Part shown: piece by piece, positions 46,098 through 58,877 of the stretch | Layout of the letters: every line of letters begins with the position of its first letter | How positions within the stretch are numbered: position 1 is the stretch's first letter | Assembly (NCBI RefSeq): GCF_002208135.1 | Contig: NZ_CP021647.1 | Location: 933,501 to 997,500 of the forward strand | Direction: 5' to 3' | Length of the DNA: 64,000 nucleotides | Source: Pseudoalteromonas piscicida | Lineage (GTDB): Bacteria; Pseudomonadota; Gammaproteobacteria; Enterobacterales; Alteromonadaceae | The notes under the pieces: generated by a model | Databases searched by the model: none | Told to the model about the DNA's origin: nothing | What the model saw: only the letters and a program-made list of their open reading frames with translations | Translations under genes and position numbers: made by a program

Positions 46098-46313
46098 TTA
46101 GGCAAAGCTTTCGTTGATGAGTTCTGCGCTATAGCCTGCATTACGAATAATGGCGATAACGTCGTCTTCTCCTTTGGTGCTTGAAATTTCAACGATTTTA
46201 TCATCTAGGCGGACATTCACTTGCGCTTGGCTATCAGCCGCTTGCATTGCTTCTGTGATTGCTTTTACGCAGTGACCGCAGACCATTTTTTCTACTCTTA
46301 GTCTTAACATCAT
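46098..46313 (-). CDS. copZ: CopZ-like copper chaperone
   Basis: A 71-residue single heavy-metal-associated domain. The metal site is MVCGHCVKAITEAMQ, and the fold ends with DVIAIIRNAGYSAELI. It delivers Cu(I) to CopA-type ATPases. It is divergent from copA, and its own promoter has a CueR-type architecture at 46342-46372. Confidence 0.9.
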   Translation of the reverse strand: MMLRLRVEKMVCGHCVKAITEAMQAADSQAQVNVRLDDKIVEISSTKGEDDVIAIIRNAGYSAELINESFA

Positions 46314-46341: not shown

Positions 46342-46372
46342 ACTGTGAAGCTTCCCTTGATGGTAAGGTCAA
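46342..46372 (-). promoter_or_regulatory. CueR-type promoter of copZ
   Basis: On the minus strand: TTGACC (-35, 46367-46372), a 19-bp spacer, then CACAGT (-10, 46342-46347). The spacer contains the dyad ACCTTACC...GGGAAGCT. The overlong spacer is the mark of MerR-family activators such as CueR. Confidence 0.8.
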
Positions 46373-46438: not shown

Positions 46439-46469
46439 TTGACCTTACCATGAGGGTAAGGGTTAGTGT
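46439..46469 (+). promoter_or_regulatory. CueR-type promoter of copA
   Basis: TTGACC (46439-46444), a 19-bp spacer, TAGTGT (46464-46469). The spacer holds ACCTTACC-ATGA-GGGTAAGGGT, a CueR-like dyad. Transcription would start near 46476, so the ATG there cannot be the working start and the ATG at 46506 is used. Confidence 0.85.
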
Positions 46470-46505
46470 CCAACAATGAGAATTAACGCGTTTGCGGAGA
46501 TAGAA

Positions 46506-48884
46506 ATGGACAAGGTAATAAAATTTAATGTATCGGGCATGACATGCGCCTCGTGCGTTGGCCGAGTTGAGAAAGCCTTAGAGAAAGTGTCTGGCGTTGT
46601 CAGTGCCAGTGTTAACTTAGCTTTGGAAGCGGTGTCTGTTGAAGGCAGTGCGGAAGTGTCGGCATTGGTGAGTGCGGTAAAAGATGCAGGTTACAAGGTC
46701 AATACCAGTGAAGTGCAATATCAAGTTAAAGGCATGACTTGCGCGTCTTGTGTGAACCGAGTGGAAAAGGCGGCGCAAGCATTACCGCAGGTAATTAAAG
46801 CCGAGGTCAATTTAGCGACTGAAAAGCTTACCTTAACTTTAGTGGCAGAATTACCGTTCGCTGAAATAGAAGCCAAGCTTAACGACGCCGGTTACACCGT
46901 GGTGCAGCCACAAGCAGGCTCGGATGAGTTAAACGAACAAGTTGCAGCAACTCCCTTTTATCGCGCTGATTGGTTCCCGGCAGTGGCGTCACTGACGCTC
47001 ACTCTACCTATGGTGTTACCCATGTTTGCCATGTTGTTTAACCAAAACTGGATGCTCCCTGCATGGATGCAATGGGCACTGGCAACACCTGTTCAGTTTT
47101 ATTTTGGTGCGCGTTTTTATCGTGCTGGATGGGGAGCAATAAAAGCGGGAACGGGGAATATGGATTTGCTGGTGGCCATCGGCACCAGTGCAGCGTATGG
47201 TCTGTCAGTGTATTTGTGGTGGACATTCAGCGGTGAGCATGGCGCTCCGCATTTATACTTCGAAAGCAGCAGTGCCGTGTTGAGCTTGGTACTGCTGGGT
47301 AAGTATCTTGAACACAGAGCCAAGCTGCGTACAACCAGCGCCCTTAAAGCGCTTGAAAGCTTAAGGCCAACATCGGCTATGGTCTGGCGTGATAACAGTT
47401 GGCGAGAAGTCCCAGCTGGGGCAGTAAAAAGTGGCGAACGACTATTGATCAAACCTGGTGAGCGTATACCGGTTGATGGCGTTGTAGTTGAAGGTCACTC
47501 ACAGGTAGATGAAGCGCTTATCAGCGGTGAAAGCGTGCCTGTTTATAAAGCACAAACAGATAAAGTGACTGGTGGTTCGGTGAATCTTGATGGCGTGCTT
47601 GAAGTGGATGCAACCAGTGTTGGCGCGGAATCGACCCTAGCCAAAATTATTCGCTTGGTAGAGCAAGCACAAGGCGCGAAAGCACCAGTGCAAGCGTTGG
47701 TGGATAAAGTGAGTGCGGTATTTGTACCAGCAGTACTAGTGATTGCGCTTATTACATTTTTTGCATGGGGCCTCAGCACGGGAGATTGGCCAACGGGTAT
47801 TCTTAATGCAGTGGCCGTTCTTGTTATTGCTTGCCCGTGTGCGCTTGGTTTAGCAACACCAGCCGCGATTATGGCAGGTACTGGCACTGCCGCGCGCTAT
47901 GGGATCTTAGTAAAAGATGCTGGTGCACTGGAGCAAGCAACTACCATCGATATGGTAATTTTTGATAAAACCGGCACGCTTACGGTGGGCAAACCTGAGC
48001 TTAGCAATATGCACACTTTTACGTATCATCAAAACGACGTGTTACAGCTAGCGGCATCGTTACAGCAATACAGCGAACACCCGCTTGCCAAGGCTGTGGT
48101 CAATAAGGCACAAGAAAAGCAATTGTCATTACTTCCTGTAAGCGACTTTAAAGTGGTGGCGGGTAGAGGCGTTAAAGCACAATACCAAGATAAAACAGTC
48201 TATTTGGGGAGCGGTTTTTGGATGCAAGAGTTAGGCTTAACCTTGCCTGCGCTACCAGAAGAAATACCCGGCGCTTCTTTATCTTGGTTAGTGAGCCAAA
48301 ATAGTGAACTGAGTTGCGAGTTTTTGGCGCTATTCTACTTTACTGACGAGCTTAAAGCTCATGCCTATACCGCGGTCAAACAGCTTAAGCAGCAAGGAAT
48401 TAAAGTTGCAATGTTGACCGGAGACAGCCAAAGTAGTGCACAGTACAATGCTAAATTGCTGGAGCTGGACGATTATAAAGCGCAAGTACTGCCAGAGCAC
48501 AAAGCTGAGTATATTGCTAATGCCCAACAGCAAGGTTACTGTGTGGCAATGGTCGGCGACGGGATCAATGACGCCCCAGCGCTGGCACAGGCTGATCTGG
48601 GTATCGCAATGGCAACCGGTACGGAAGTGGCGGTAAGCGCGTCGGCAATGACGCTGATGCGCGGCGAGCCAAGCTTAGTGGCATCTGCTTTAGCGATGGC
48701 AAAATTAACCTATCGCAAAATCAAGCAAAATCTATTTTGGGCATTTATCTTTAATGTCATTGGCATTCCATTGGCAGCACTGGGTTACCTTAACCCTATT
48801 TTTGCAGGTGCGGCGATGGCGGCCAGTAGTTTACTAGTCATTAGCAATGCGTTGTTATTGCAACGTTGGCAACCAAAGGAGTAA
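46506..48884 (+). CDS. copA: CopA Cu(I)-exporting P1B-type ATPase
   Basis: A 792-residue copper ATPase. Two N-terminal metal-binding domains each have GMTCASC. The membrane part carries VLVIACPCALGLATPAA with the CPC ion site. The phosphorylation site DKTGTLT, the HP motif in YSEHPLAKAV and the hinge GDGINDAPALAQAD are all present. It pumps Cu(I) to the periplasm. The start at 46506 has GGAG upstream and lies after the predicted transcription start. It is followed by cueR 5 bp downstream, and copZ is divergent. Confidence 0.96.
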   Translation: MDKVIKFNVSGMTCASCVGRVEKALEKVSGVVSASVNLALEAVSVEGSAEVSALVSAVKDAGYKVNTSEVQYQVKGMTCASCVNRVEKAAQALPQVIKAEVNLATEKLTLTLVAELPFAEIEAKLNDAGYTVVQPQAGSDELNEQVAATPFYRADWFPAVASLTLTLPMVLPMFAMLFNQNWMLPAWMQWALATPVQFYFGARFYRAGWGAIKAGTGNMDLLVAIGTSAAYGLSVYLWWTFSGEHGAPHLYFESSSAVLSLVLLGKYLEHRAKLRTTSALKALESLRPTSAMVWRDNSWREVPAGAVKSGERLLIKPGERIPVDGVVVEGHSQVDEALISGESVPVYKAQTDKVTGGSVNLDGVLEVDATSVGAESTLAKIIRLVEQAQGAKAPVQALVDKVSAVFVPAVLVIALITFFAWGLSTGDWPTGILNAVAVLVIACPCALGLATPAAIMAGTGTAARYGILVKDAGALEQATTIDMVIFDKTGTLTVGKPELSNMHTFTYHQNDVLQLAASLQQYSEHPLAKAVVNKAQEKQLSLLPVSDFKVVAGRGVKAQYQDKTVYLGSGFWMQELGLTLPALPEEIPGASLSWLVSQNSELSCEFLALFYFTDELKAHAYTAVKQLKQQGIKVAMLTGDSQSSAQYNAKLLELDDYKAQVLPEHKAEYIANAQQQGYCVAMVGDGINDAPALAQADLGIAMATGTEVAVSASAMTLMRGEPSLVASALAMAKLTYRKIKQNLFWAFIFNVIGIPLAALGYLNPIFAGAAMAASSLLVISNALLLQRWQPKE

Positions 48885-48889
48885 ACGTC

Positions 48890-49300
48890 ATGGAAAAACT
48901 GATCACAATCGGTGAAGCCGCGCAGCGTACAGGACTCTCTGCAAAAATGATCCGCCATTATGAGGCAAGCGGGCTACTAAAGTGCAGCAAAAGAAGTGAA
49001 GCGGGTTACAGGCTGTACGACTCGCAACAATTACAATTACTAGGTGTGATAAAGCAAGCACGAAAACTAGGGTTTCCTATTGCGCAGATCCAATCTTTAC
49101 TCGATTTGTTACAAAATCCAGACCGTACTAGCCGTGAAGTCAAATCGATAGCGCAGCATCATTTGAATGAGATTGAGCATAAAATCAATGAACTTCAGCA
49201 AATGCGTGAGACCTTGAAACAACTGTCGGACAACTGTAGTGGTGACGAAAATGCAAACTGTCCAATTTTAGATGGGCTTTGCCAAAATAGCCTAAAATAG
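48890..49300 (+). CDS. cueR: CueR copper-responsive MerR-family activator
   Basis: A 136-residue MerR protein. The HTH (TIGEAAQRTGLSAKMIRHYE, then SGLLKCSKRSEAGYRLYD) is followed by a dimer helix. The C-terminal metal loop reads CSGDENANCPILDGLCQ, matching CueR with two ligand cysteines. The ATG 48890 follows AAGGAG; the upstream start lies inside copA and is rejected. It would regulate the copA, copZ and, by site similarity, the 52849 promoter in this window. Confidence 0.94.
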   Translation: MEKLITIGEAAQRTGLSAKMIRHYEASGLLKCSKRSEAGYRLYDSQQLQLLGVIKQARKLGFPIAQIQSLLDLLQNPDRTSREVKSIAQHHLNEIEHKINELQQMRETLKQLSDNCSGDENANCPILDGLCQNSLK

Positions 49301-49378: not shown

Positions 49379-50673
49379 CTAAGCCTCAAGTAATAGTCTT
49401 GACTGGGTAAGTGCGAGCAGTGCACTTTGTAATCTTGGCAGCGCCGTTTCAATTTCACTCGGTGAAATAGTACAAACGGCAGCGCGATACCAAAGCTGTG
49501 ACGCTTTAGAGCGACAGCCAAAGCTGGCGAATGGCACCAGTGCTAACCCTGCGCTATCAATTAAATAACGACTAACTTGATCTGCATTTTCGAGTACGTT
49601 TCCGTTGGGTGTTTCCATATTGATGGCGTCGATCTTCAAGGTCATATAAATGCCGGCATTTGGTATAAATGAATCGATTGCCATGCCTGCGCTTTTCATA
49701 TCCTGAACACCCTGATGCAGTACCGCCATTGAGGCTAGTATTTTTTCTTTAAAGCCGGCTAAATAACTTTGTAGGTAGGCTTCATTTTGAAATAACACCG
49801 CAGTGGCAAGTTGCTCTGCCGTCGGGGCCATTGCACCTATATGTTCTTGGATCACCTGCATTTTTGCTATCACTTCGTGTGGGCCTGTCGCCCACCCAAC
49901 TCGAATACCTGTTGCGGCAAAAGCTTTGGTGCCGGCATCAACCACTATTAAGTAAGGCTTGATATCTGGGCAAAGCGACGCTGGATGATAATGCTCAACC
50001 TCTTGCATTGTCAGCATCCAGTACACTTGGTCGTAGATCACATAGAGTGGTTTGGCGTTTATAGTTCTGCGGCGCGCGTTTTCTGCGACAACCATGTCGC
50101 AGATTTCACTGAGCTGTTGCTTTGAAAACATAGAGCCGTTCGGGTTTTGTGGTGAGCATAAGGTGATAAGGCGCGCGTCAGATATATGCGCTTGAAGCTG
50201 TTCCGCTGTAGGTAAAAACTGATTTGCTACGCTGGTTTCAATTGGCACGTGCTTGCCACCACACATAGTGGTGTAAAACATGTTATTCCAAGAAGGAACA
50301 GGGTAGATCACCTTGTCATCTGCGCTCACTGTAGCGAGCATCGCAGAATACAGCAAAGGCCTTGCACCGCCAGAGATCAGCATCTCTGTGTCTGGGTTGT
50401 AGCTGACGTCAAAGTGCTTTTTAGTTTGTTTTGCTACTTCATCGCGAAGTGATAACACCCCCTCAAGTGGGGGTAATCGTTATGCTTATTCTCGTAAGCT
50501 TGCTGGATCTGTGCGGTAAGGTAGTCGGGCATCGGAAATTGTTGCGTGTCAAAATCTCCAATGATCAAATCACAAATTACCTTCCCCTTTGCAAGCTGCT
50601 CCTGCACGTAAAACTCAAGGTGAATAATGTCCGAGTAATCAAGTGCATTGGCTAAATTCGATAAGTTTTCCAT
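49379..50673 (-). CDS. PLP-dependent class I/II aminotransferase, one apparent frameshift
   Basis: The N-terminal 70 residues (50673-50470) read up to AYENKHNDYP. The frame breaks in the C5/G5 run at 50469-50473; one more base gives YPPLEGVLSLRDEVAKQ and continues to 49379, about 430 residues in total. The fold-type I core is clear: SGGARPLLYSAMLAT, LCSPQNPNGSMFS, YVIYDQVYW, VVDAGTKAFAATGIRVGW with the PLP lysine. This is an aspartate-aminotransferase-like enzyme. It is third in an operon with an unknown protein and a cysteine desulfurase behind a CueR-type promoter. Its substrate may be an amino or keto acid of the same pathway, which is inference. Confidence 0.8.
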
Positions 50674-50722
50674 TGTTATATTTTTCTCCTTAAGTATCTA
50701 ATTGGGAATAATTTAGTATTAT

Positions 50723-51931
50723 TTAGAGAAGTAAAGTGAGCGCCGCGACTTCTCTAACCTTGTTGAGTGCGAAGTCAATTTCGGCTTCTGTAGTATGCCT
50801 GCCTAGGCTAAAGCGTATGGTTGCCTGTGCCAGTTCATCCGATAGCCCAAGTGCGGTTAATACGTGGCTTGGCGATAGGTTGCTTGACGAACAAGCTGAG
50901 CCAGTACTGACCGAAATGCTCTTCTTTAATAAGCTCAGCATTTTTTTACCGTCGGTGTCATGAAAAGAGACATTACAAACATGCGGGAGTCTTTCTTCGC
51001 TCATGCCATTGACTTGCACCTGTTGTAGCTCCAATAAACCATCTTCTAGCTTGTCCCTTAGCTGTTCAACTTTGTCAATTGCGCCATTGCTTAGTTCTCG
51101 CTGTGCAAGTTCCACTGCCTTGGCAAAACCAACAATGCCAGGTACATTTAACGTGCCACCGCGTAGCCCTTGCTCGCTTCCACCACCGGTGATCTGCGGC
51201 CTAATATCAACCACTCTATTGCCATGCTGATGTCTTAAATACAGGCCGCCAACCCCTTTAGGGCCATAAATTTTGTGTGCTGAGCAAGTTAAAATATCAA
51301 TAGGGCAAGTGGTTAGATTGATATCAACCTTGCCAAGCGCTTGTGTGGCGTCAGACATAAATAGAATGCCATGTTGCTTTGCAATAAAGGCAATGTGTTC
51401 GATTGGATTAATGGTGCCAATTTCGTTATTTGCGTACATCACGGTGATTAAAATTGTTTCAGGCGTGATTGTGGCCTTCATTGCGTCGATATCAAAGCTG
51501 CCATCAGGTAACGGCTCAAGATAAGAAACGCGAGCGCCTTCCTGTTCTAGATCTCTAAGTGTTGCAAGCGTTGCAGGGTGCTCAATCGACGAAGTAATAA
51601 TGTGCTTGCCTTTGTGATTACAAGCACGAAACACGCCGCGGATCCCTAAGTTGTTGCTTTCAGTCGCGCCAGAAGTAAAGATAAAATTTTCAGGTTGTGC
51701 GCCAAGGGCGTCTGCAATTTTTTCACGGGCTTGTTCGACCGCTTTATGGGCGTTCCAGCCATGTAAACCATACATGCTCGCAGCATTACCAAAGTCGTTA
51801 CAAAAGTAAGGTAACATGGCTTGTAACACTGCTTCGTCGCACGGCGTTGTGGCGTTGTGATCTAAATAGATAGGAAAGCGTAGCGACGCTTCAGTGGTGG
51901 ACTTACTCTCTAGTGCTGTAATGAGTGACAT
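50723..51931 (-). CDS. NifS/IscS-type cysteine desulfurase
   Basis: A 402-residue PLP enzyme. Start ATG 51931 follows CGGAGA. Family features are YLDHNATTPCDEAVLQAML, FTSGATESNNLGIRGVF, the PLP lysine in TCSAHKIYGPKGVGGLYL, and the catalytic cysteine in STGSACSSSNLSPSHVL. It removes sulfur from cysteine and passes it as a persulfide. There is no iscR, iscU or iscA beside it, so it is probably a dedicated sulfur donor for this operon and not for general iron-sulfur assembly. 49 bp separate it from the aminotransferase gene. Confidence 0.9.
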   Translation of the reverse strand: MSLITALESKSTTEASLRFPIYLDHNATTPCDEAVLQAMLPYFCNDFGNAASMYGLHGWNAHKAVEQAREKIADALGAQPENFIFTSGATESNNLGIRGVFRACNHKGKHIITSSIEHPATLATLRDLEQEGARVSYLEPLPDGSFDIDAMKATITPETILITVMYANNEIGTINPIEHIAFIAKQHGILFMSDATQALGKVDINLTTCPIDILTCSAHKIYGPKGVGGLYLRHQHGNRVVDIRPQITGGGSEQGLRGGTLNVPGIVGFAKAVELAQRELSNGAIDKVEQLRDKLEDGLLELQQVQVNGMSEERLPHVCNVSFHDTDGKKMLSLLKKSISVSTGSACSSSNLSPSHVLTALGLSDELAQATIRFSLGRHTTEAEIDFALNKVREVAALTLLL

Positions 51932-51988
51932 AAAAATCTCCGTATAAAATTGGGGCAACAGGCAAATTGAAGCGGATAGGTGCTTGCG

Positions 51989-52849
51989 TTACGCTTCGCA
52001 AGCTCCGGCTAGGGTGCTGGTTTGGGTGTTAATGGAATAATCTTCCATATCAAAGTCAGACAAGAAGATATTGGAGATCTTAACGATATTGTCGCCTAGG
52101 CTTTCGTCTTGTAGGAAAAGTCCTAACGCCACTTCAGTACCATTCATGACCTTGTGAAAGTCATCCATTTCAGAGAAGTCCATAATGTGGAATACCCCTG
52201 CCTGAGGGTTCATTTTCAGTGCTTTTTGATATGTATCTTTATAGTGCTGCGCCATGATAAGCGGGCATTTTGCAGTCCATATATCCTTATCTTTTGATTC
52301 AGCTAAAACGATGTCTACTCCCTTACTGTTTTCGAAGAGAATTTTGGTCACACCGTTGCTCGTTGCGAGTGACAATTGTGGGAAACTTGCTAAATCTTGC
52401 GAGATGATTTTACGTAACGATTGGATACCACGGTTTTTACAATTGCGCTCCCCCTGAAGTACTAAGCGGTCGCGCTTTACAATGCTGTAATCACTTAATA
52501 CGACTTCTAGCTCGTCAGGTAATGGCGCAAGTCCTTGACTGTCGGTGGTCATTGCTGGGGATGCAGAAATATCACAAGATTCACTACCACACTGCAAACC
52601 TAGATCGTCTATCAACACGCCAAGCACTACTTTAAGTTTTTTCTTGTGCTCTAGAATCGCGTTGTTCGCGACACTTAACACCTTTACCATTGAATCGATT
52701 GAGAATTCAGTAGCGGAATAACGCGGATCAAAATGCCCACCTTCTAGATAAAAGGCGGAGACAGTCGGATAGTGTTCAGCGACATCCATGCGGATCATCT
52801 CTAGAAGTTTTTGCTCTACTTTTCCAACCATTTTTTCTTTTAATTTCAT
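51989..52849 (-). CDS. Unknown 286-residue protein, first gene of the copper-linked operon
   Basis: No family recognised. It is soluble, mixed alpha/beta by appearance, without a signal peptide or membrane helix. Cys pairs occur in LGLQCGSESCDIS and at the C-terminus (LAGACEA); RLVLQGERNCKNRG and MDFSEMDDFHKVMNG are other notable segments. Starts ATG 52849 with a second ATG at codon 7; no strong ribosome site. It is directly downstream of a CueR-type promoter and precedes the desulfurase by 57 bp. A role as a pathway enzyme or sulfur carrier is possible but not shown. Confidence 0.7.
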   Translation of the reverse strand: MKLKEKMVGKVEQKLLEMIRMDVAEHYPTVSAFYLEGGHFDPRYSATEFSIDSMVKVLSVANNAILEHKKKLKVVLGVLIDDLGLQCGSESCDISASPAMTTDSQGLAPLPDELEVVLSDYSIVKRDRLVLQGERNCKNRGIQSLRKIISQDLASFPQLSLATSNGVTKILFENSKGVDIVLAESKDKDIWTAKCPLIMAQHYKDTYQKALKMNPQAGVFHIMDFSEMDDFHKVMNGTEVALGLFLQDESLGDNIVKISNIFLSDFDMEDYSINTQTSTLAGACEA

Positions 52850-53040
52850 TTCGTTAGTCTCTATCTGTAGTTGTGTTAAAGGTGTTTAATACCTTTGAGT
52901 AACGGCCTAATTAGTTTGTTTACCGACAAGCATGTGCCAAAGCGGTAACGCACGAAGTAATTAATTTCCATGCCCTACTAACAAAGTGAGGTTAATAAAA
53001 AGTCAACTTCACCTTAAGGATGAATCTGCCAAGTTAAATA

Positions 53041-53071
53041 ACTGTAAAGATTGCCACGGTGGTAAGGTCAA
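53041..53071 (-). promoter_or_regulatory. CueR-type promoter of the desulfurase operon
   Basis: On the minus strand: TTGACC (53066-53071), 19-bp spacer, TACAGT (53041-53046). The spacer starts TTACCACCGTGGCAATCTT, giving the left half site ACCTTACC as at copA and copZ and a weaker right half. It lies about 190 bp before the unknown gene. The rest of the 635-bp divergent gap holds the phased repeats at 53389 and no gene. Confidence 0.75.
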
Positions 53072-53388
53072 TGTTTGTTTTCGCAAAAGTTGAGTTTTTT
53101 AGAAGTTTTTTTGTGAATCATTCATTTCAATTGTTTTAATCGAGTCAGCGCTAATTGGTGAAAAAGAAAACCAAGATCATGCTAAGTGGCTTGTTTAATT
53201 AATAAACATCTTTTAGGCGGAATAAGAAATCAGAAGGACTATGCCGATTTCTTCACCGAGTTGAGTCATTGCCGTTTGCACGGCATTTGCGTTAATTAAA
53301 ACAAACGCGATTAGCTAAGCGTTTTTGGCTAAAAACATTTGAGTTACATATCTATGTTGATTTAGTGAAACGTGGTTTTTGTACTCGC

Positions 53389-53425
53389 TGTAATGTCTCT
53401 GTAATCCGTTGTAACTCGGTGTAAT
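53389..53425 (+). promoter_or_regulatory. Four helically phased TGTAAY repeats
   Basis: TGTAAT, TGTAAT, TGTAAC and TGTAAT start at 53389, 53400, 53410 and 53420, on one face of the helix. They end 59 bp before the oxidase start. They resemble an array of activator sites, but the regulator is unknown. Confidence 0.5.
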
Positions 53426-53484
53426 AGCTAAAATCATCACCCTTACATATGCTTTTGAGTAATAGCCTAAAGGAGCATAGTAAA

Positions 53485-55359
53485 ATGAATAAAGAACTAG
53501 ATATTGCCATTGTGGGTGGCGGTGTATCGGGCGTGTATAGTGCATGGCGCCTTCAACAAGAACTTGGCGATACCCATCGCATAGGCTTATTTGAATATAG
53601 TGACCGTATCGGTGGTCGCTTGTATAGTCGTACACTTCCGGGGTTACCCAACGTTGTGGCTGAGCTAGGCGGAATGCGCTTTATTCCGGACGATCATGTG
53701 ATGGTGAGTACGCTGGTGGAGGAGCTAAACCTCCAAACCAAAGACTTTCCAATGGGCTCAAAGCTGCCGTTGTACCCATCAAATGGAGAATGCTCCCCTG
53801 AAGCGGGCAGTGAAAACAACCTATTTTATCTACGCGGGCAATATTTTAGATATCGTGATTTCGCCGAATGCCCAGACAAAATCCCATACCAGCTTGAAGA
53901 ATCAGAGCGAGGTTATGGACCCGAAGATCTTCAAGTTAAAGTCATGAACCTCATCTGCCCGGGCTTTGCCGATATGTCACTTGCAGAGCAGATGAAAGTC
54001 AAAGTATTCGGCAAGGAAATTTGGCGCTTTGGCTTTTGGAACCTGCTTGAGCATGTATTGAGTAATGAAGCATACCTCTTTATGAAAGAAGCAGGTGGCT
54101 ACGATGCTAATGTCGCGAATGCCAGCGCGGTTACTCAGTTGCCAGCTACTGAATATAGCGATGATACGGTATTTAAGACTCTCAAAGATGGTTTTCAGGC
54201 GTTACCGCTGAAGTTATGTGAAGAGTTTGCCGCGGCACCAGGCTGCCTTGAAAGCAGTAAACGCGTTAATATGCTAAATCGACTCGCAAAAATTGAGCTG
54301 CATGATTGTGGCGAGTATCGTTATGTACTCACTTTTCAACCAACACAAGTGAATAGCAGTGGGAAAGTGGTTGATAAAGATGCCCCCGCATATAGCGTCA
54401 AAGTGAAGCGGCTTATTTTGGCTATGCCAAGACGCTCGCTTGAGCTAATTGAATCGCCGTTCTTTGATGACCCTTGGTTAAAAGAAAACATTCCGTCTGT
54501 ACTTATCCAAAAGGCGATTAAGATGTTTATGGCTTACGAGCAACCTTGGTGGCGCAGTTTGGGTCTTGTTGCAGGTCGTTCTGTCACTGACTTACCAATC
54601 CGTCAAACCTATTACATGGGCACGGAATGCGACCAAAAAGAATGCCTTAAATACGGGACAGACGACGAAGGCAAACGGGTGTGTAAAAAAGAGCACACCT
54701 ATGGTGAGCCTAATACCAACTCGCTGCTAATGGCTTCTTACAATGATATTGGCACCATCCCTTACTGGAAAGGGTTAGAAAAGGGCGAGCATTACCCAGG
54801 CTTTATGCCAGCCTATGGTGCACAAGGCTATACCGAAAACGAGATAGTACCTAAAAATCAGTATCAAATTACCACGGGGATGGTGGAAGCGGCACATCGC
54901 CAAATTCAAGCATTACATAATCAAAAAGCGCTCCCAATGCCATATTCTGCAATCTACCAAGAATGGGGAGATGACCCTTATGGTGGTGGCTGGCATGAGT
55001 GGAAAGCCAATTACCGTCTTGATGAGATCATGTGCAGAATGCGCCACCCTGTCGCGAGTGAAGAAATCTATATTGTTGGCGAAGCGTACTCCTATGAACA
55101 AGGTTGGGTGGAAGGCGCGCTAAATACGGCTGAATCGACATTGGCTGAGTTTTTTGCTTTACCTACACCTAAGTGGTTATCTAAAGACAAAGCCCAGTAT
55201 GAACAGTGGCTTAAGTCACACCATAACTACCTACCAGTAGATTGCCGTAAAGGTGGATGCTCATGTCAACATTCTGAGCAACAGCCAAATGCCAGTTCAA
55301 AGACACTAGACAAAGTCACTGAGTTTGCTTATCAAGGTATTAATCATGAGTACCGCTAA
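53485..55359 (+). CDS. L-amino-acid-oxidase-like FAD flavoprotein
   Basis: A 624-residue flavoprotein of the amine oxidase/LAAO family. The FAD-binding motif IAIVGGGVSGVYSAW (about 7-21) is followed by FEYSDRIGGRLYSR and ELGGMRFIPDDH; the C-terminal FAD contact is in EIYIVGEAYSYEQGWVEGAL. It deaminates amino acids to keto acids with H2O2 in known relatives, several from Pseudoalteromonas. The C-terminus has a Cys-rich tail (CRKGGCSCQH). ATG 53485 follows AAGGAG. Its end overlaps the decarboxylase gene by 14 bp. The keto acid would be a fitting substrate for the next enzyme. Confidence 0.82.
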   Translation: MNKELDIAIVGGGVSGVYSAWRLQQELGDTHRIGLFEYSDRIGGRLYSRTLPGLPNVVAELGGMRFIPDDHVMVSTLVEELNLQTKDFPMGSKLPLYPSNGECSPEAGSENNLFYLRGQYFRYRDFAECPDKIPYQLEESERGYGPEDLQVKVMNLICPGFADMSLAEQMKVKVFGKEIWRFGFWNLLEHVLSNEAYLFMKEAGGYDANVANASAVTQLPATEYSDDTVFKTLKDGFQALPLKLCEEFAAAPGCLESSKRVNMLNRLAKIELHDCGEYRYVLTFQPTQVNSSGKVVDKDAPAYSVKVKRLILAMPRRSLELIESPFFDDPWLKENIPSVLIQKAIKMFMAYEQPWWRSLGLVAGRSVTDLPIRQTYYMGTECDQKECLKYGTDDEGKRVCKKEHTYGEPNTNSLLMASYNDIGTIPYWKGLEKGEHYPGFMPAYGAQGYTENEIVPKNQYQITTGMVEAAHRQIQALHNQKALPMPYSAIYQEWGDDPYGGGWHEWKANYRLDEIMCRMRHPVASEEIYIVGEAYSYEQGWVEGALNTAESTLAEFFALPTPKWLSKDKAQYEQWLKSHHNYLPVDCRKGGCSCQHSEQQPNASSKTLDKVTEFAYQGINHEYR

Positions 55360-57109
55360 CTTTACGGTTGCCGACCATTTACTGTGGCGGCTAAAGCAGT
55401 TGGGCCTTGATAAGGTGTTTCAAGTGCCTGGTGACTATGTGCAAGAATTTATGACCGCTCTGGATAATTTTCCTGGTATTGACGCAGTAGGCGATGTAAC
55501 CGAACTGGGAGCAGGCTACGCAGCGGAAGGGTATGCCAGATACCGAGGAATTGGCGCAGTGTCGGTGCAATACGGCGTGGGCACGTTTAGTGTATTAAAC
55601 GCGATTGCTGGCGCTTACGTCGAGCGTAACCCCGTTGTCGTTATATCGGCAAGCCCGTCGGCTGAAAATCGTGTAGATATTGAAGAAACAGGCGCGTTAT
55701 TTCATCACTCTACCGGCGACTATAGCGCTGATAAAAAGGTGTTTGAAAATGTCACTGTTGCCAGTGAAATTCTTTCGGATCCCGCTTCTGCTCCTGAGAT
55801 TATTGATAATGCGTTAAGCCTTGCCATGAGTGAAAAGCGGCCTATTTATCTAGAAGCGTGGCAAAACGTGTGGGGCGCAGCTTGTGATAAACCAGATGGC
55901 CATTTAGTGATCCCAAAACCGGCATCTCATCCTGCGATGATGGCAAGTTTACTAGATAAAGTAATCAACCGACTCAAAGAGGCTAAGAAGCCACTGGTGT
56001 TATTAGGGATCGAAATTACGCGGCTTGGCATACAAAGGGAAGTCGAAAACTTGCTCTGTAATCTCAATATTCCGTATACCACGACGACGCTAGCCAAATC
56101 AGTATTAAGTGAGGCGCAAGGGCTTGGGAAGGCGTTGTTTGTTGGCACCTATGCGGGTGAAGCTTCATGGCCTGAAACGTTTGATTTTGTTAGCAAACGA
56201 GATTGCATTTTAGCGTTGGGGGCAATATTCACCGACGATTACCTGACCATGTTAAAAACACAAGGTAACGAATTGATCCGCGTGAATATGGGCGAAGCAA
56301 GAATTGGTAACTGCGAGCGTTTTAGTGGTATTGATTTAGCGCAGTTCATTGATGATTTAACGGTGTATATTGAGCATTACCCCATGCAGCATCGTGCGCT
56401 TTGCCCGTTGCCGGAAAACCCCTATTTGAACAGTCCCGTACAAGATTGCGATGCCATCACCTACGAAAACTTCTTTTGCACATACCAAAAGCAGCTAGCC
56501 CAATGCGAAAAGGTGCGTGACTTCAATCTTATTTTGGGCGAAAGCTCATCGCTTTATATGGCGGCGCGTTTAACTGGTATTGAAGAGAGCCGCTTTATTA
56601 GTGATGCTGCTTGGGGGTCGTTAGGCCATGAAACCGGTTGTTCACTTGGCACAGCCTTAGCTGACCATCGACGTAGTGTTGTGGTTGCAGGCGACGGTGG
56701 GTTTATGATGATGTGCCAAACACTGTCTAGCATTAGTCATAACAAACTCAATACTGCTGTGTTTGTAATGAGTAACCAAGTGTATGCAATTGAGCAGTCG
56801 TTTGTTGATATCTGTGCGTTTACTCCTGCGGGCGCATTTGCACCATTTGATGATCTTCATCGTTGGGACTATGAATCATTAGCGAATGCGTATTTTGTCG
56901 AATATTTGCATGTAGAGACCGTCGCGGATCTAAATGGGGTTTTTGCTACGCTTCATGAAAACCCATGTAAGCCGTACCTCATTAAAGTGAATATTGATAA
57001 GAAAGATCTCGCACCTGCGATTCAAGATCTCGCCGAAGCCATTACCGGTAAAAAAGTGGACGACTGTCCATGTGGAAACAATAAAGCGCAAGGAAACAAT
57101 AATGCCTAA
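55346..57109 (+). CDS. ThDP-dependent 2-keto-acid decarboxylase (PDC/IPDC-like)
   Basis: A 587-residue ThDP enzyme. Pyruvate/indolepyruvate decarboxylase hallmarks are FQVPGDY (27-31), the activating Glu in TELGAGYAAEGYAR (Glu53), the His pair LFHHSTGDY (120-121), a GDGGFMMMCQTLSS...SNQVYAIEQ ThDP site, and a late Glu in IEQSF. It removes CO2 from a 2-keto acid to give an aldehyde, or could condense it with another aldehyde. The C-terminal tail (DDCPCGNNKA) has a CPC motif. It overlaps both neighbours (14 and 8 bp), an operon with likely coupled translation. Confidence 0.88.
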   Translation: MSTANFTVADHLLWRLKQLGLDKVFQVPGDYVQEFMTALDNFPGIDAVGDVTELGAGYAAEGYARYRGIGAVSVQYGVGTFSVLNAIAGAYVERNPVVVISASPSAENRVDIEETGALFHHSTGDYSADKKVFENVTVASEILSDPASAPEIIDNALSLAMSEKRPIYLEAWQNVWGAACDKPDGHLVIPKPASHPAMMASLLDKVINRLKEAKKPLVLLGIEITRLGIQREVENLLCNLNIPYTTTTLAKSVLSEAQGLGKALFVGTYAGEASWPETFDFVSKRDCILALGAIFTDDYLTMLKTQGNELIRVNMGEARIGNCERFSGIDLAQFIDDLTVYIEHYPMQHRALCPLPENPYLNSPVQDCDAITYENFFCTYQKQLAQCEKVRDFNLILGESSSLYMAARLTGIEESRFISDAAWGSLGHETGCSLGTALADHRRSVVVAGDGGFMMMCQTLSSISHNKLNTAVFVMSNQVYAIEQSFVDICAFTPAGAFAPFDDLHRWDYESLANAYFVEYLHVETVADLNGVFATLHENPCKPYLIKVNIDKKDLAPAIQDLAEAITGKKVDDCPCGNNKAQGNNNA

Positions 57110-58877
57110 ACCATCCAATAAACCTATCCCAGAATCTCAGTTAGACGAAGCACAAAAGCGTATTGACCGCTACTGGCGTGCGACACAAGAATTTATACTC
57201 GCGTTAGAAAGTAAACACGGTTTTTCCGAAAAGCAGCTACTTACGTTATTGCCAACGGGGGATACTTCGATGGAGCGCTTTAGAGAATATCAAGCTAAAG
57301 CGCTTATCTTTAACACACGATTGCAGTTTTCGCCCTCGGTGATTGTGATGTGTAACAATACCGATGATGTAATGCGCGCCTATCAGGAAGCAATAGCATT
57401 TAACTTACCTATTCGAGTGCGATCTGGCGGTCACGATCATGAAGGCGAGTGCACCGGCACTGATGTGGTGCTACTTGATTTAAGCGGTTTAAAAGATTTC
57501 TCCATCGAGAAACAAGGCGATGACTATATTGCCCATATTGGCTCGGGCTATCGCTTTTACCAATTAGTCCCAAAGCTTGCCGCATCTGGCTATAAAGATA
57601 TTCCGCCGTTAACCATTCCGCACGGCACTTGCGCCACAGTCGGGTTAGCTGGCTATATTCAAGGCGGTGGTTGGGGCCCGTGGACGCGAGCGAAAGGGAT
57701 GTGCTGTGAGTCACTGGTTGGTGCGACCGTTATTCTACAAAATGGTTCGAGAGTCGAGGTCTCTGAAACCGAAAATAAGGAGATTTTATGGGCACTGCGC
57801 GGAGGCGGGGCGTTAAGTTATGGGATTGTGACAGAGTTTAGAGTCAAAGCCTTTAAGCTGCCTGAAGAAATCCACCGCTTTGAAATTAACTGGAATAATG
57901 AGGCGGTTGGCTCTACGGACTTAGCCACTTGGCAGCTACTCAGCCAGTGGGAAGATGCGATTAACGACACGGGTAAGGGTACCGAGAACTTAGTTGGGAC
58001 TAACCTAAAAATCAACGCAATCCCGGATATTAGCGAATGTGAAAAGTCACCGGGTTACGAAAAAACCTTAACGCATCCAAGCACTATGTATGGTTATTGG
58101 CAAGGCTCAGAAGCGGAGTTAACTCAGTTTGCTAAACAGTATTTTCCTGCAGCTAAAGTACAGGTGACAGGCACGGACACTAAGCAAAATTATAGCGAAG
58201 CATTGATGTCTGACTGGTCGCGAAACTCCTTGGCTAACCTTAAAAAACTGGGGTTAAAAGGGACGCTTGCCGCAAGTGTAGATGGTAAACCATTTACACC
58301 AGATTTTGATGCCCCAGCGCCGCATAAAATTACCTCAAAGTTAGTGCGACAGTCAGGCCTTACCGAACAAGGCAAGTTAGCGCTATTACGCTCACTCACA
58401 TCGCCTTTACTGTTTGCGCAAAATGCCCCACTTGGACTATTTAGTTATGTCACCTTAGGAGCGATAGCGGGTGAGTTTTATGCTGAAGATACACGAGATG
58501 AGGCGAAAGACCGTGTTGCCTTCCCGTATACTACTGCGCAGTACACCATTCAATACCAAACTTGGTGGAATACCGAGTTACAATACGACGGCAGCTACGA
58601 TAGCAAACGCCTTGGTCAAGCAAATCCGGTATACCGTTATGTAAATCGTGCACTTGATTGGATTGAAGTAAGCCGCGACACCTGTATTGAAGGTGCATAC
58701 GGCGCGTTTATCAGCTTTAAAGACGCATCCATCCCGACGAAAATCTACTTCCAAGAGAATTACGAAAAACTCATTGAAATCAAAGAGGAGTATTCGGGTT
58801 TCACAGTTAAATTAGACTGTGGTGAAGAGGTTTACGTCAACTTTAATCGCCTTAGAACCCGTAAGACAATTATTTAA
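57102..58877 (+). CDS. FAD-linked BBE-type oxidoreductase
   Basis: A 591-residue flavoprotein of the berberine-bridge/vanillyl-alcohol oxidase type. The FAD domain has VRSGGHDHEGECTG (His111, the 8-alpha-histidyl site) and HGTCATVGLAGYIQGGGWGP (Cys177, the 6-S-cysteinyl site), so bicovalent FAD is expected. The C-terminal end (EEVYVNFNRLRTRKTI) matches the BBE segment. The ATG 57102 follows AAGGA and overlaps the decarboxylase by 8 bp. Such enzymes oxidise alcohols, amines or ring systems in secondary metabolism. Substrate is not known. Confidence 0.85.
   Translation: MPKPSNKPIPESQLDEAQKRIDRYWRATQEFILALESKHGFSEKQLLTLLPTGDTSMERFREYQAKALIFNTRLQFSPSVIVMCNNTDDVMRAYQEAIAFNLPIRVRSGGHDHEGECTGTDVVLLDLSGLKDFSIEKQGDDYIAHIGSGYRFYQLVPKLAASGYKDIPPLTIPHGTCATVGLAGYIQGGGWGPWTRAKGMCCESLVGATVILQNGSRVEVSETENKEILWALRGGGALSYGIVTEFRVKAFKLPEEIHRFEINWNNEAVGSTDLATWQLLSQWEDAINDTGKGTENLVGTNLKINAIPDISECEKSPGYEKTLTHPSTMYGYWQGSEAELTQFAKQYFPAAKVQVTGTDTKQNYSEALMSDWSRNSLANLKKLGLKGTLAASVDGKPFTPDFDAPAPHKITSKLVRQSGLTEQGKLALLRSLTSPLLFAQNAPLGLFSYVTLGAIAGEFYAEDTRDEAKDRVAFPYTTAQYTIQYQTWWNTELQYDGSYDSKRLGQANPVYRYVNRALDWIEVSRDTCIEGAYGAFISFKDASIPTKIYFQENYEKLIEIKEEYSGFTVKLDCGEEVYVNFNRLRTRKTII

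Follow-up and report, generated by a model that had tools for sequence, protein, structure and literature searches.

A candidate CueR-controlled cassette pairing an undescribed synthetase-like protein with a cysteine desulfurase in Pseudoalteromonas and distant bacteria

We analyzed a 64,000-nucleotide stretch of DNA from Pseudoalteromonas piscicida (contig NZ_CP021647.1, positions 933,501 to 997,500; hereafter the window), which lies on the smaller of the two contigs of a 5.3-Mb genome, and describe a three-gene cassette that it carries next to the copper-response genes copA and cueR. The cassette, on the reverse strand, encodes U286, a protein of 286 residues from an undescribed family (51989–52849); a cysteine desulfurase (50723–51958, likely ATG start at 51931); and an aminotransferase-like protein of pyridoxal phosphate (PLP) fold type I (49379–50673). 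We propose, tentatively and at somewhat less than an even chance, that CueR switches the cassette on and that U286, synthetase-like in its predicted fold, uses sulfur from the desulfurase to make a metabolite that handles copper. As judged from the sequences, the gene set recurs with conserved partners and CueR-type promoters in three distant lineages. An earlier note on this DNA, made by a model from the letters and a list of open reading frames, had joined the three genes and a divergent operon of three more into one copper-induced pathway; its observations are partly confirmed and its interpretation is partly supported, as detailed below.

The earlier note had pointed to a CueR-type promoter (TTGACC, 19-bp spacer, TACAGT) at the head of the cassette, and we located this element at 53041–53071 on the reverse strand, pointing at U286. 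Two further sites of this kind lie in the window, one belonging to a copZ-like gene (46342–46372, −) and one to copA (46439–46469, +). The search pattern was built from these three sites, which by design match it without a mismatch; shuffled sequence gave a mean of 0.01 matches in 100 shuffles. When the pattern was applied to the whole genome with up to two mismatches, only three matches were obtained, namely the U286 box and the two between the copZ-like gene and copA. Two further matches appeared at three mismatches, and a reversed control pattern gave two at up to three. In an alignment of the region between U286 and the divergent oxidase gene (nine rows, eight distinct genomes), the box was kept in all nine rows, with one base changed in two of them, and the DNA around it diverged or held a 1.1-kb insert.

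For comparison across loci, we gave the 300 bases upstream of U286 a score for a promoter that combines a 19-bp spacer and a CueR-like palindrome, with 1000 dinucleotide shuffles as the background. The half-site consensus was taken partly from passages of PMC1526738 and partly from the window, so that the score, which was fixed after the candidate boxes had been seen by eye, carries some circularity where the window and P. piscicida 36Y are concerned, but none for Deefgea or Pantoea. Each of the cassettes with an aminotransferase gene that we scored (window, 36Y, Deefgea salmonis and Pantoea coffeiphila; type I below) had a CueR-type box upstream of U286 that none of 1000 shuffles matched; the copA genes of the window and Deefgea, which served as positive controls, likewise gave 0/1000 each. 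Since the sites of the window and of 36Y go back to a single ancestral one, these amount to three independent lineages. The cassettes with an EamA-family gene (type II below) showed no such enrichment in the 300 bases upstream of U286 (Serratia, 444/1000; the bin labelled Sphingobacterium, 630/1000; genome G1168, no candidate site), and neither did the U286 relative of a bin labelled Gracilibacteria (378/1000). At a reporting threshold of 15, the U286 box was the sole site in the 14.8-kb Pantoea locus; the window had two lower-scoring extra sites (score 16), one of them inside the U286 leader, and the stretches L082 and L075 had one site each (score 15), neither upstream of U286.

The regulator itself, a Cu(I)-responsive activator of the MerR family, is encoded beside copA (cueR, 48866–49300, +, likely ATG start at 48890), as the earlier note had said. 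It exceeds the TIGR02044 cut-off of 147.4 bits in the window (154.4) and in Pantoea (198.5), and barely does so in Deefgea (147.5–147.7). Among the three type II genomes, G1168 had one CueR match, below the cut-off, and the other two had none at E ≤ 1e-25. One of the two without a match is the record titled Serratia marcescens (G1193, L083); the lack of a match is odd for the Serratia group, and its label or assembly may be off. Because the box is conserved, is one of three sites genome-wide at up to two mismatches, and has independent counterparts in Deefgea and Pantoea, the U286 operon very probably belongs to the CueR regulon, and the cassette is probably switched on by copper. A copper-linked sulfur function, which the earlier note had suggested for all six genes, is therefore the best reading of this operon; its extension to the divergent trio is not supported.

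The cassette is shared between distant bacteria, as far as sequence relationships tell. A single-sequence search with U286 of 369 genomes of the class returned only the window's own protein. A profile search of 394 genomes of the order gave one strong distant relative, in G1168 (E 5e-38), where the U286 relative is followed by a desulfurase gene and then by an EamA-family gene; five further matches there (E 0.01–0.09) were taken as chance. A scan of a genome collection with the resulting profile matched 25 stretches, 9 of which encode relatives (these counts are lower bounds, as a sequence must contain either of two short peptide patterns to be reached): four from Pseudoalteromonas, one each from Deefgea salmonis, Pantoea coffeiphila and Serratia marcescens, and two from metagenome bins labelled Sphingobacterium and Gracilibacteria, labels that may be wrong. 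U286 was found in plasmids only in Pseudoalteromonas sp. NC201, and in neither phages nor viral contigs.

Counting these nine loci together with that of G1168 (for three of the Pseudoalteromonas loci, the contigs examined were those already used in our comparison of the relatives' neighbourhoods), a desulfurase gene adjoins U286 in 9 of 10. The third gene encodes an aminotransferase in six (type I, in Pseudoalteromonas, Deefgea and Pantoea) and an EamA-family protein in three (type II), the latter suggesting a small exported product. The Deefgea cassette adjoins its own copA and cueR, and its proteins are 64% (U286), 70% (desulfurase) and 61% (aminotransferase) identical to those of the window's group. 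The relative in the Gracilibacteria-labelled bin (L082, 3838–4584), which lacks the cysteine pair described below, has no desulfurase in the stretch, and a contig end is near.

The desulfurase, whose best NCBIfam matches are IscS and NifS families, is a class V, NifS-like protein by its PF00266 PLP fold and an aligned SACSS active-site loop, sharing these with IscS and NifS, but it differs from them in scoring below the cut-offs of the NCBIfam equivalogs for IscS, NifS and DndA (440.1 against 548 bits, 431.8 against 643.2, 439 against 530.75 and 402.1 against 480), and indeed of every family among the matches listed (25 of 44). Cassette desulfurases are 61–71% alike within type I (n = 3), 57–63% within type II (n = 3) and 36–42% between the types, and the closest paralogue in the same genome reaches 43–45% to the type I proteins (this comparison leaves out one of three own-genome rows, L088, an unrelated reading frame). 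The SAC loop is kept in all six cassette desulfurases compared.

The aminotransferase gene (PF00155) starts at ATG 50673 and not, as the earlier note had it, at GTG 50458; near 50458 its frame is broken by a shift of one base within a run of C (50440–50673, −). Each of the 10 other distinct loci examined (seven relatives, 36Y, Deefgea and Pantoea) has the gene in an unbroken frame, and the frameshift may be a sequencing error or a fresh break. The best NCBIfam match of the window's protein is the cyclodehydratase GntC, at 135.6 bits against a cut-off of 415 and for the C-terminal piece only, and the Deefgea protein matches aspartate transaminase better than GntC. The aminotransferase is divergent: at E ≤ 1e-60 it had no match in the other 393 of the 394 order genomes, and in plasmids every match except that of NC201 was less than 60% identical (26–29% for the matches listed). 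Ratios of nonsynonymous to synonymous substitution rates (dN/dS) against 36Y and the relative L010 were about 0.07 for U286, 0.03–0.04 for the desulfurase and 0.08 for the C-terminal part of the aminotransferase; those of the divergent trio, against L010, were 0.06–0.07. By this measure both gene sets are under purifying selection.

U286, which is 98.6% identical in NC201, had only weak matches in Pfam (best E 0.007), PADLOC (0.038) and PDB (0.7), with none above a family cut-off, and searches of PDB with phmmer and with the profile gave no synthetase up to E 10. A structure model built from seven diverse sequences (an earlier one from near-identical sequences had a pLDDT of 35 and was discarded) matched, in Foldseek, the catalytic fold of class I aminoacyl-tRNA synthetases, with the arginyl enzyme (ArgRS) nearest; cyclodipeptide synthases were not among the 50 fold matches listed. 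Residues 24–272 align with the synthetase catalytic domain, and no tRNA- or anticodon-binding domain was found within the 286 residues. In the alignment of seven members, a cysteine pair, C87 and C92, on what the model shows as a flexible loop, is present in the six proteins that adjoin a desulfurase and lost in the seventh. C195 and many polar residues are invariant, as are G37-G38-H39 and K233-V234-x-x-G237, candidates for the HIGH and KMSKS signatures. U286 is thus predicted to be an undescribed enzyme with a class I synthetase-like core.

We infer copper induction, ATP activation, sulfur transfer, a product and its role toward copper as follows. A rise in Cu(I) would let CueR turn on U286, the desulfurase and the aminotransferase. 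U286, whose predicted core leaves no room for tRNA-binding domains, would activate an amino acid or a related acid at its carboxyl group, at the expense of ATP. The desulfurase would take sulfur from cysteine and pass it as a persulfide to C87/C92, from where it would attack the activated acid and yield a small sulfur compound, for example a thio acid, which the aminotransferase would prepare or trim; the product would most likely bind or remove copper. In a more specific form, which we consider possible but doubtful, U286 represents a new family in which a synthetase core has become an ATP-dependent, sulfur-inserting enzyme that thiolates an amino acid through its two-cysteine loop, giving a copper-binding thio-amino acid under CueR control and a secreted relative where an exporter is linked. 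Arginine is a possible substrate because ArgRS is the nearest fold.

Several observations weigh against the proposed copper-linked synthesis. The link to synthetases depends on one predicted model, with low TM-scores (0.43–0.46); the HIGH and KMSKS signatures cannot be made out clearly, and alignment of U286 by hhalign with the single sequences of E. coli ArgRS and CysRS gave a probability of 0.1 and no detectable homology. The aminotransferase gene is frameshifted in this very genome. The promoter score was revised after its first version had failed: with the palindrome in the wrong register, that version found no enrichment at any locus (shuffles of 500: window, 386; L078, 462; L080, 320; L081, 32; L083, 487; L084, 448; L075, 361; L082, 332; trio, 484), failed on its positive controls as well (copA of the window, 429/500; copA of Deefgea, 245/500) and was discarded. 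Lastly, type II cassettes are without a CueR box, and the chemistry of U286 and the desulfurase is therefore not tied to copper as such. Arguing from type II, this chemistry would yield a small exportable compound, to which type I would have added copper control.

Other uses of the same genes have to be considered. Copper damages iron-sulfur clusters, and the cassette could simply supply sulfur under copper stress, with sulfide or persulfide from the desulfurase precipitating copper or repairing clusters and U286 a mere sulfur acceptor. The IscS/NifS-like desulfurase with its active-site cysteine would suit such a role, as would the cysteine pair found in just those six of seven aligned U286 proteins that adjoin a desulfurase. 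We nevertheless hold it to be unlikely: the three genes include no scaffold, ferredoxin or chaperone, the third being an aminotransferase or EamA-family gene, and an acceptor would need neither a synthetase-like fold nor so many invariant polar residues. The predicted stand-alone class I core of U286 also recalls GluQ-RS, from which one might suppose that the desulfurase feeds a copper-inducible thio-modification of tRNA or protein. Neither an aminotransferase nor an EamA exporter would be expected there, and the third genes differ between the types, neither being a tRNA enzyme; we rate this account as quite unlikely.

The proposal that all six genes form one copper-induced route, in which an amino acid becomes first a keto acid, then an aldehyde and finally a sulfur metabolite, is highly improbable by comparison of gene content, which led us to reject it. 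The six genes do occur together in 8 of 108 Pseudoalteromonas genomes (L006, from NC201, and L041, from G460, being taken as one genome), but all eight are near relatives of the window, and each module is also found alone. U286 is present in 9 of the 108 genomes, and a BBE match at E ≤ 1e-30 in 33. Among 25 BBE neighbourhoods compared, 15 have the full trio, namely the window, seven relatives with the cassette and seven without it; this number is a lower bound, since eight genomes with weaker BBE matches lay outside the comparison. In the remaining 10 (L051–L060), the BBE proteins are about 34–51% identical, and neither an oxidase nor a decarboxylase gene was seen in the stretch.

In P. piscicida 2515, copA-cueR and the trio lie in collinear flanks that meet at L068 11891–11897, and the segment 49365–53375, which in the window holds the cassette genes and the promoter, is absent; U286 was not found in the 2515 record of the plasmid collection, the main chromosome lying outside that search. 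Conversely, a close oxidase, the only trio protein sought there, was missing from the cassette-bearing genomes of 36Y (best match 30% identical, E 6.5e-31), Deefgea and Pantoea (none at E ≤ 1e-20). Nor did the 300 bases preceding the trio contain a CueR-type candidate site. What favours a single pathway, besides co-occurrence, is a thread of arginine: the oxidase is of the arginine type, the nearest fold of U286 is ArgRS, and GntC is an enzyme of an arginine derivative. The GntC score, however, is far below its cut-off, and the Deefgea aminotransferase is closer to aspartate transaminase. Because each occurs without the other, we treat the cassette and the trio as two modules.

The trio looks like a separate L-arginine oxidase module. 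Its oxidase (53485–55359, +) matches PT-AROD, an L-arginine oxidase from Pseudomonas sp. TPU 7192, along almost the entire protein (8t8a, 777 bits, E 1e-232). Passages of PMC11694665 name Q350 and E493 as substrate residues of PT-AROD, and the loop numbers printed there for ATEYS differ by 7 from the PDB chain, whose numbering we use; both residues align and the loop is kept in the trio oxidase, and Q350 and E493 are invariant among eight trio oxidases. At E ≤ 1e-100 the oxidase had no match beyond the window's own in 398 genomes of the phylum, and it had none in viral contigs. The thiamine pyrophosphate (TPP)-dependent 2-keto-acid decarboxylase (55346–57109, +) has, in alignment, the Asp, Glu, His-His and Glu residues known from keto-acid decarboxylases, which we take to be catalytic. 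The third protein, a flavin adenine dinucleotide (FAD)/BBE-type oxidase (57102–58877, +), scores 18.9 bits against the PF08031 cut-off of 20.6 and has a His and a Cys that align with those of glucooligosaccharide oxidase and PpBBE, presumably the flavin-linked residues; the bicovalent type named in the earlier note is thus borne out by alignment. So are its gene classes for all six proteins, by family matches, and its translational coupling of the trio, provided that in-frame ATGs are the starts: the genes then overlap by 14 bases (55346–55359) and by 8 (57102–57109).

From these sequences the trio would convert arginine to 2-ketoarginine, 4-guanidinobutanal and an oxidised product, releasing hydrogen peroxide at two steps. 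This would be a variant of an established route, the arginine oxidase/dehydrogenase pathway, which leads from arginine via 2-ketoarginine to 4-guanidinobutyrate (passages of PMC2242806); the proposed first steps are alike, and the trio differs in having a dedicated decarboxylase and BBE-type oxidase, with roles that we propose, beside the oxidase gene. The same two genes set it apart from PT-AROD, to which its activity is likened by sequence. A tryptophan route to an indole-acetic-acid-like product stays a rival, given that 6-bromoindolyl-3-acetic acid is a product of P. flavipulchra, whose genome paper lists an indolepyruvate decarboxylase (passages of PMC3853003); the best NCBIfam match of the trio decarboxylase is also indolepyruvate decarboxylase (TIGR03393). 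Its score, 243.7 bits, falls far short of the cut-off of 946, and the closeness of the oxidase to PT-AROD, with Q350 and E493 kept, argues for arginine, so that we regard the tryptophan route as improbable.

Known members of the CueR regulon are efflux, oxidase and chaperone genes. The cassette departs from these in its desulfurase and synthetase-like enzyme; literature keyword searches found no description of the cassette or of such a pairing. Fluopsin C of Pseudomonas aeruginosa is a copper-induced, cysteine-derived, copper-binding sulfur metabolite, and the proposed product would be alike in kind; to our knowledge, the enzymes differ, there being neither a synthetase-like protein nor a desulfurase in the fluopsin C pathway. 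MshC, the mycothiol cysteine ligase, is a CysRS-like class I enzyme; unlike it, U286 pairs with a desulfurase and has the loop cysteine pair, and our PDB searches with U286 did not find MshC by sequence. In its CueR-family regulator, its 19-bp-spacer promoter and a palindrome resembling the published CueR form (passages of PMC1526738), the cassette is otherwise like the regulon. If our proposal is correct, sulfur-metabolite biosynthesis would join the bacterial copper response, through a synthetase-fold enzyme partnered with a desulfurase. The system is small, comprising two proteins and one promoter, with 2515 as a natural strain lacking the cassette at the locus and with two independent outside lineages. 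The analysis also separates the cassette from the neighbouring L-arginine oxidase operon, with which annotation by proximity would merge it.

The remaining genes of the locus complete its order, which runs from the copZ-like gene (−) through copA-cueR (+) and the cassette (−) to the trio (+). The copZ-like gene (46098–46313, −) is an open reading frame of 71 residues with an MVCGHC motif, recognized by eye, and would encode a copper chaperone neighbouring in the CueR regulon, with its CueR box upstream. The copper-exporting P-type ATPase gene copA (46476–48884, +) scores 559.1 bits against the TIGR01511 cut-off of 397. One subgroup of relatives has, between U286 and the trio, an open reading frame of 289 residues that the window lacks (L008 7986–8855 and L010 9089–9958; the insert is also in L043). 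Beyond copA, relatives carry a gene of 341 residues (L008 16366–17391, L010 561–1586) whose C-terminal part looks PAAR-like by eye and which may be part of a secretion system.

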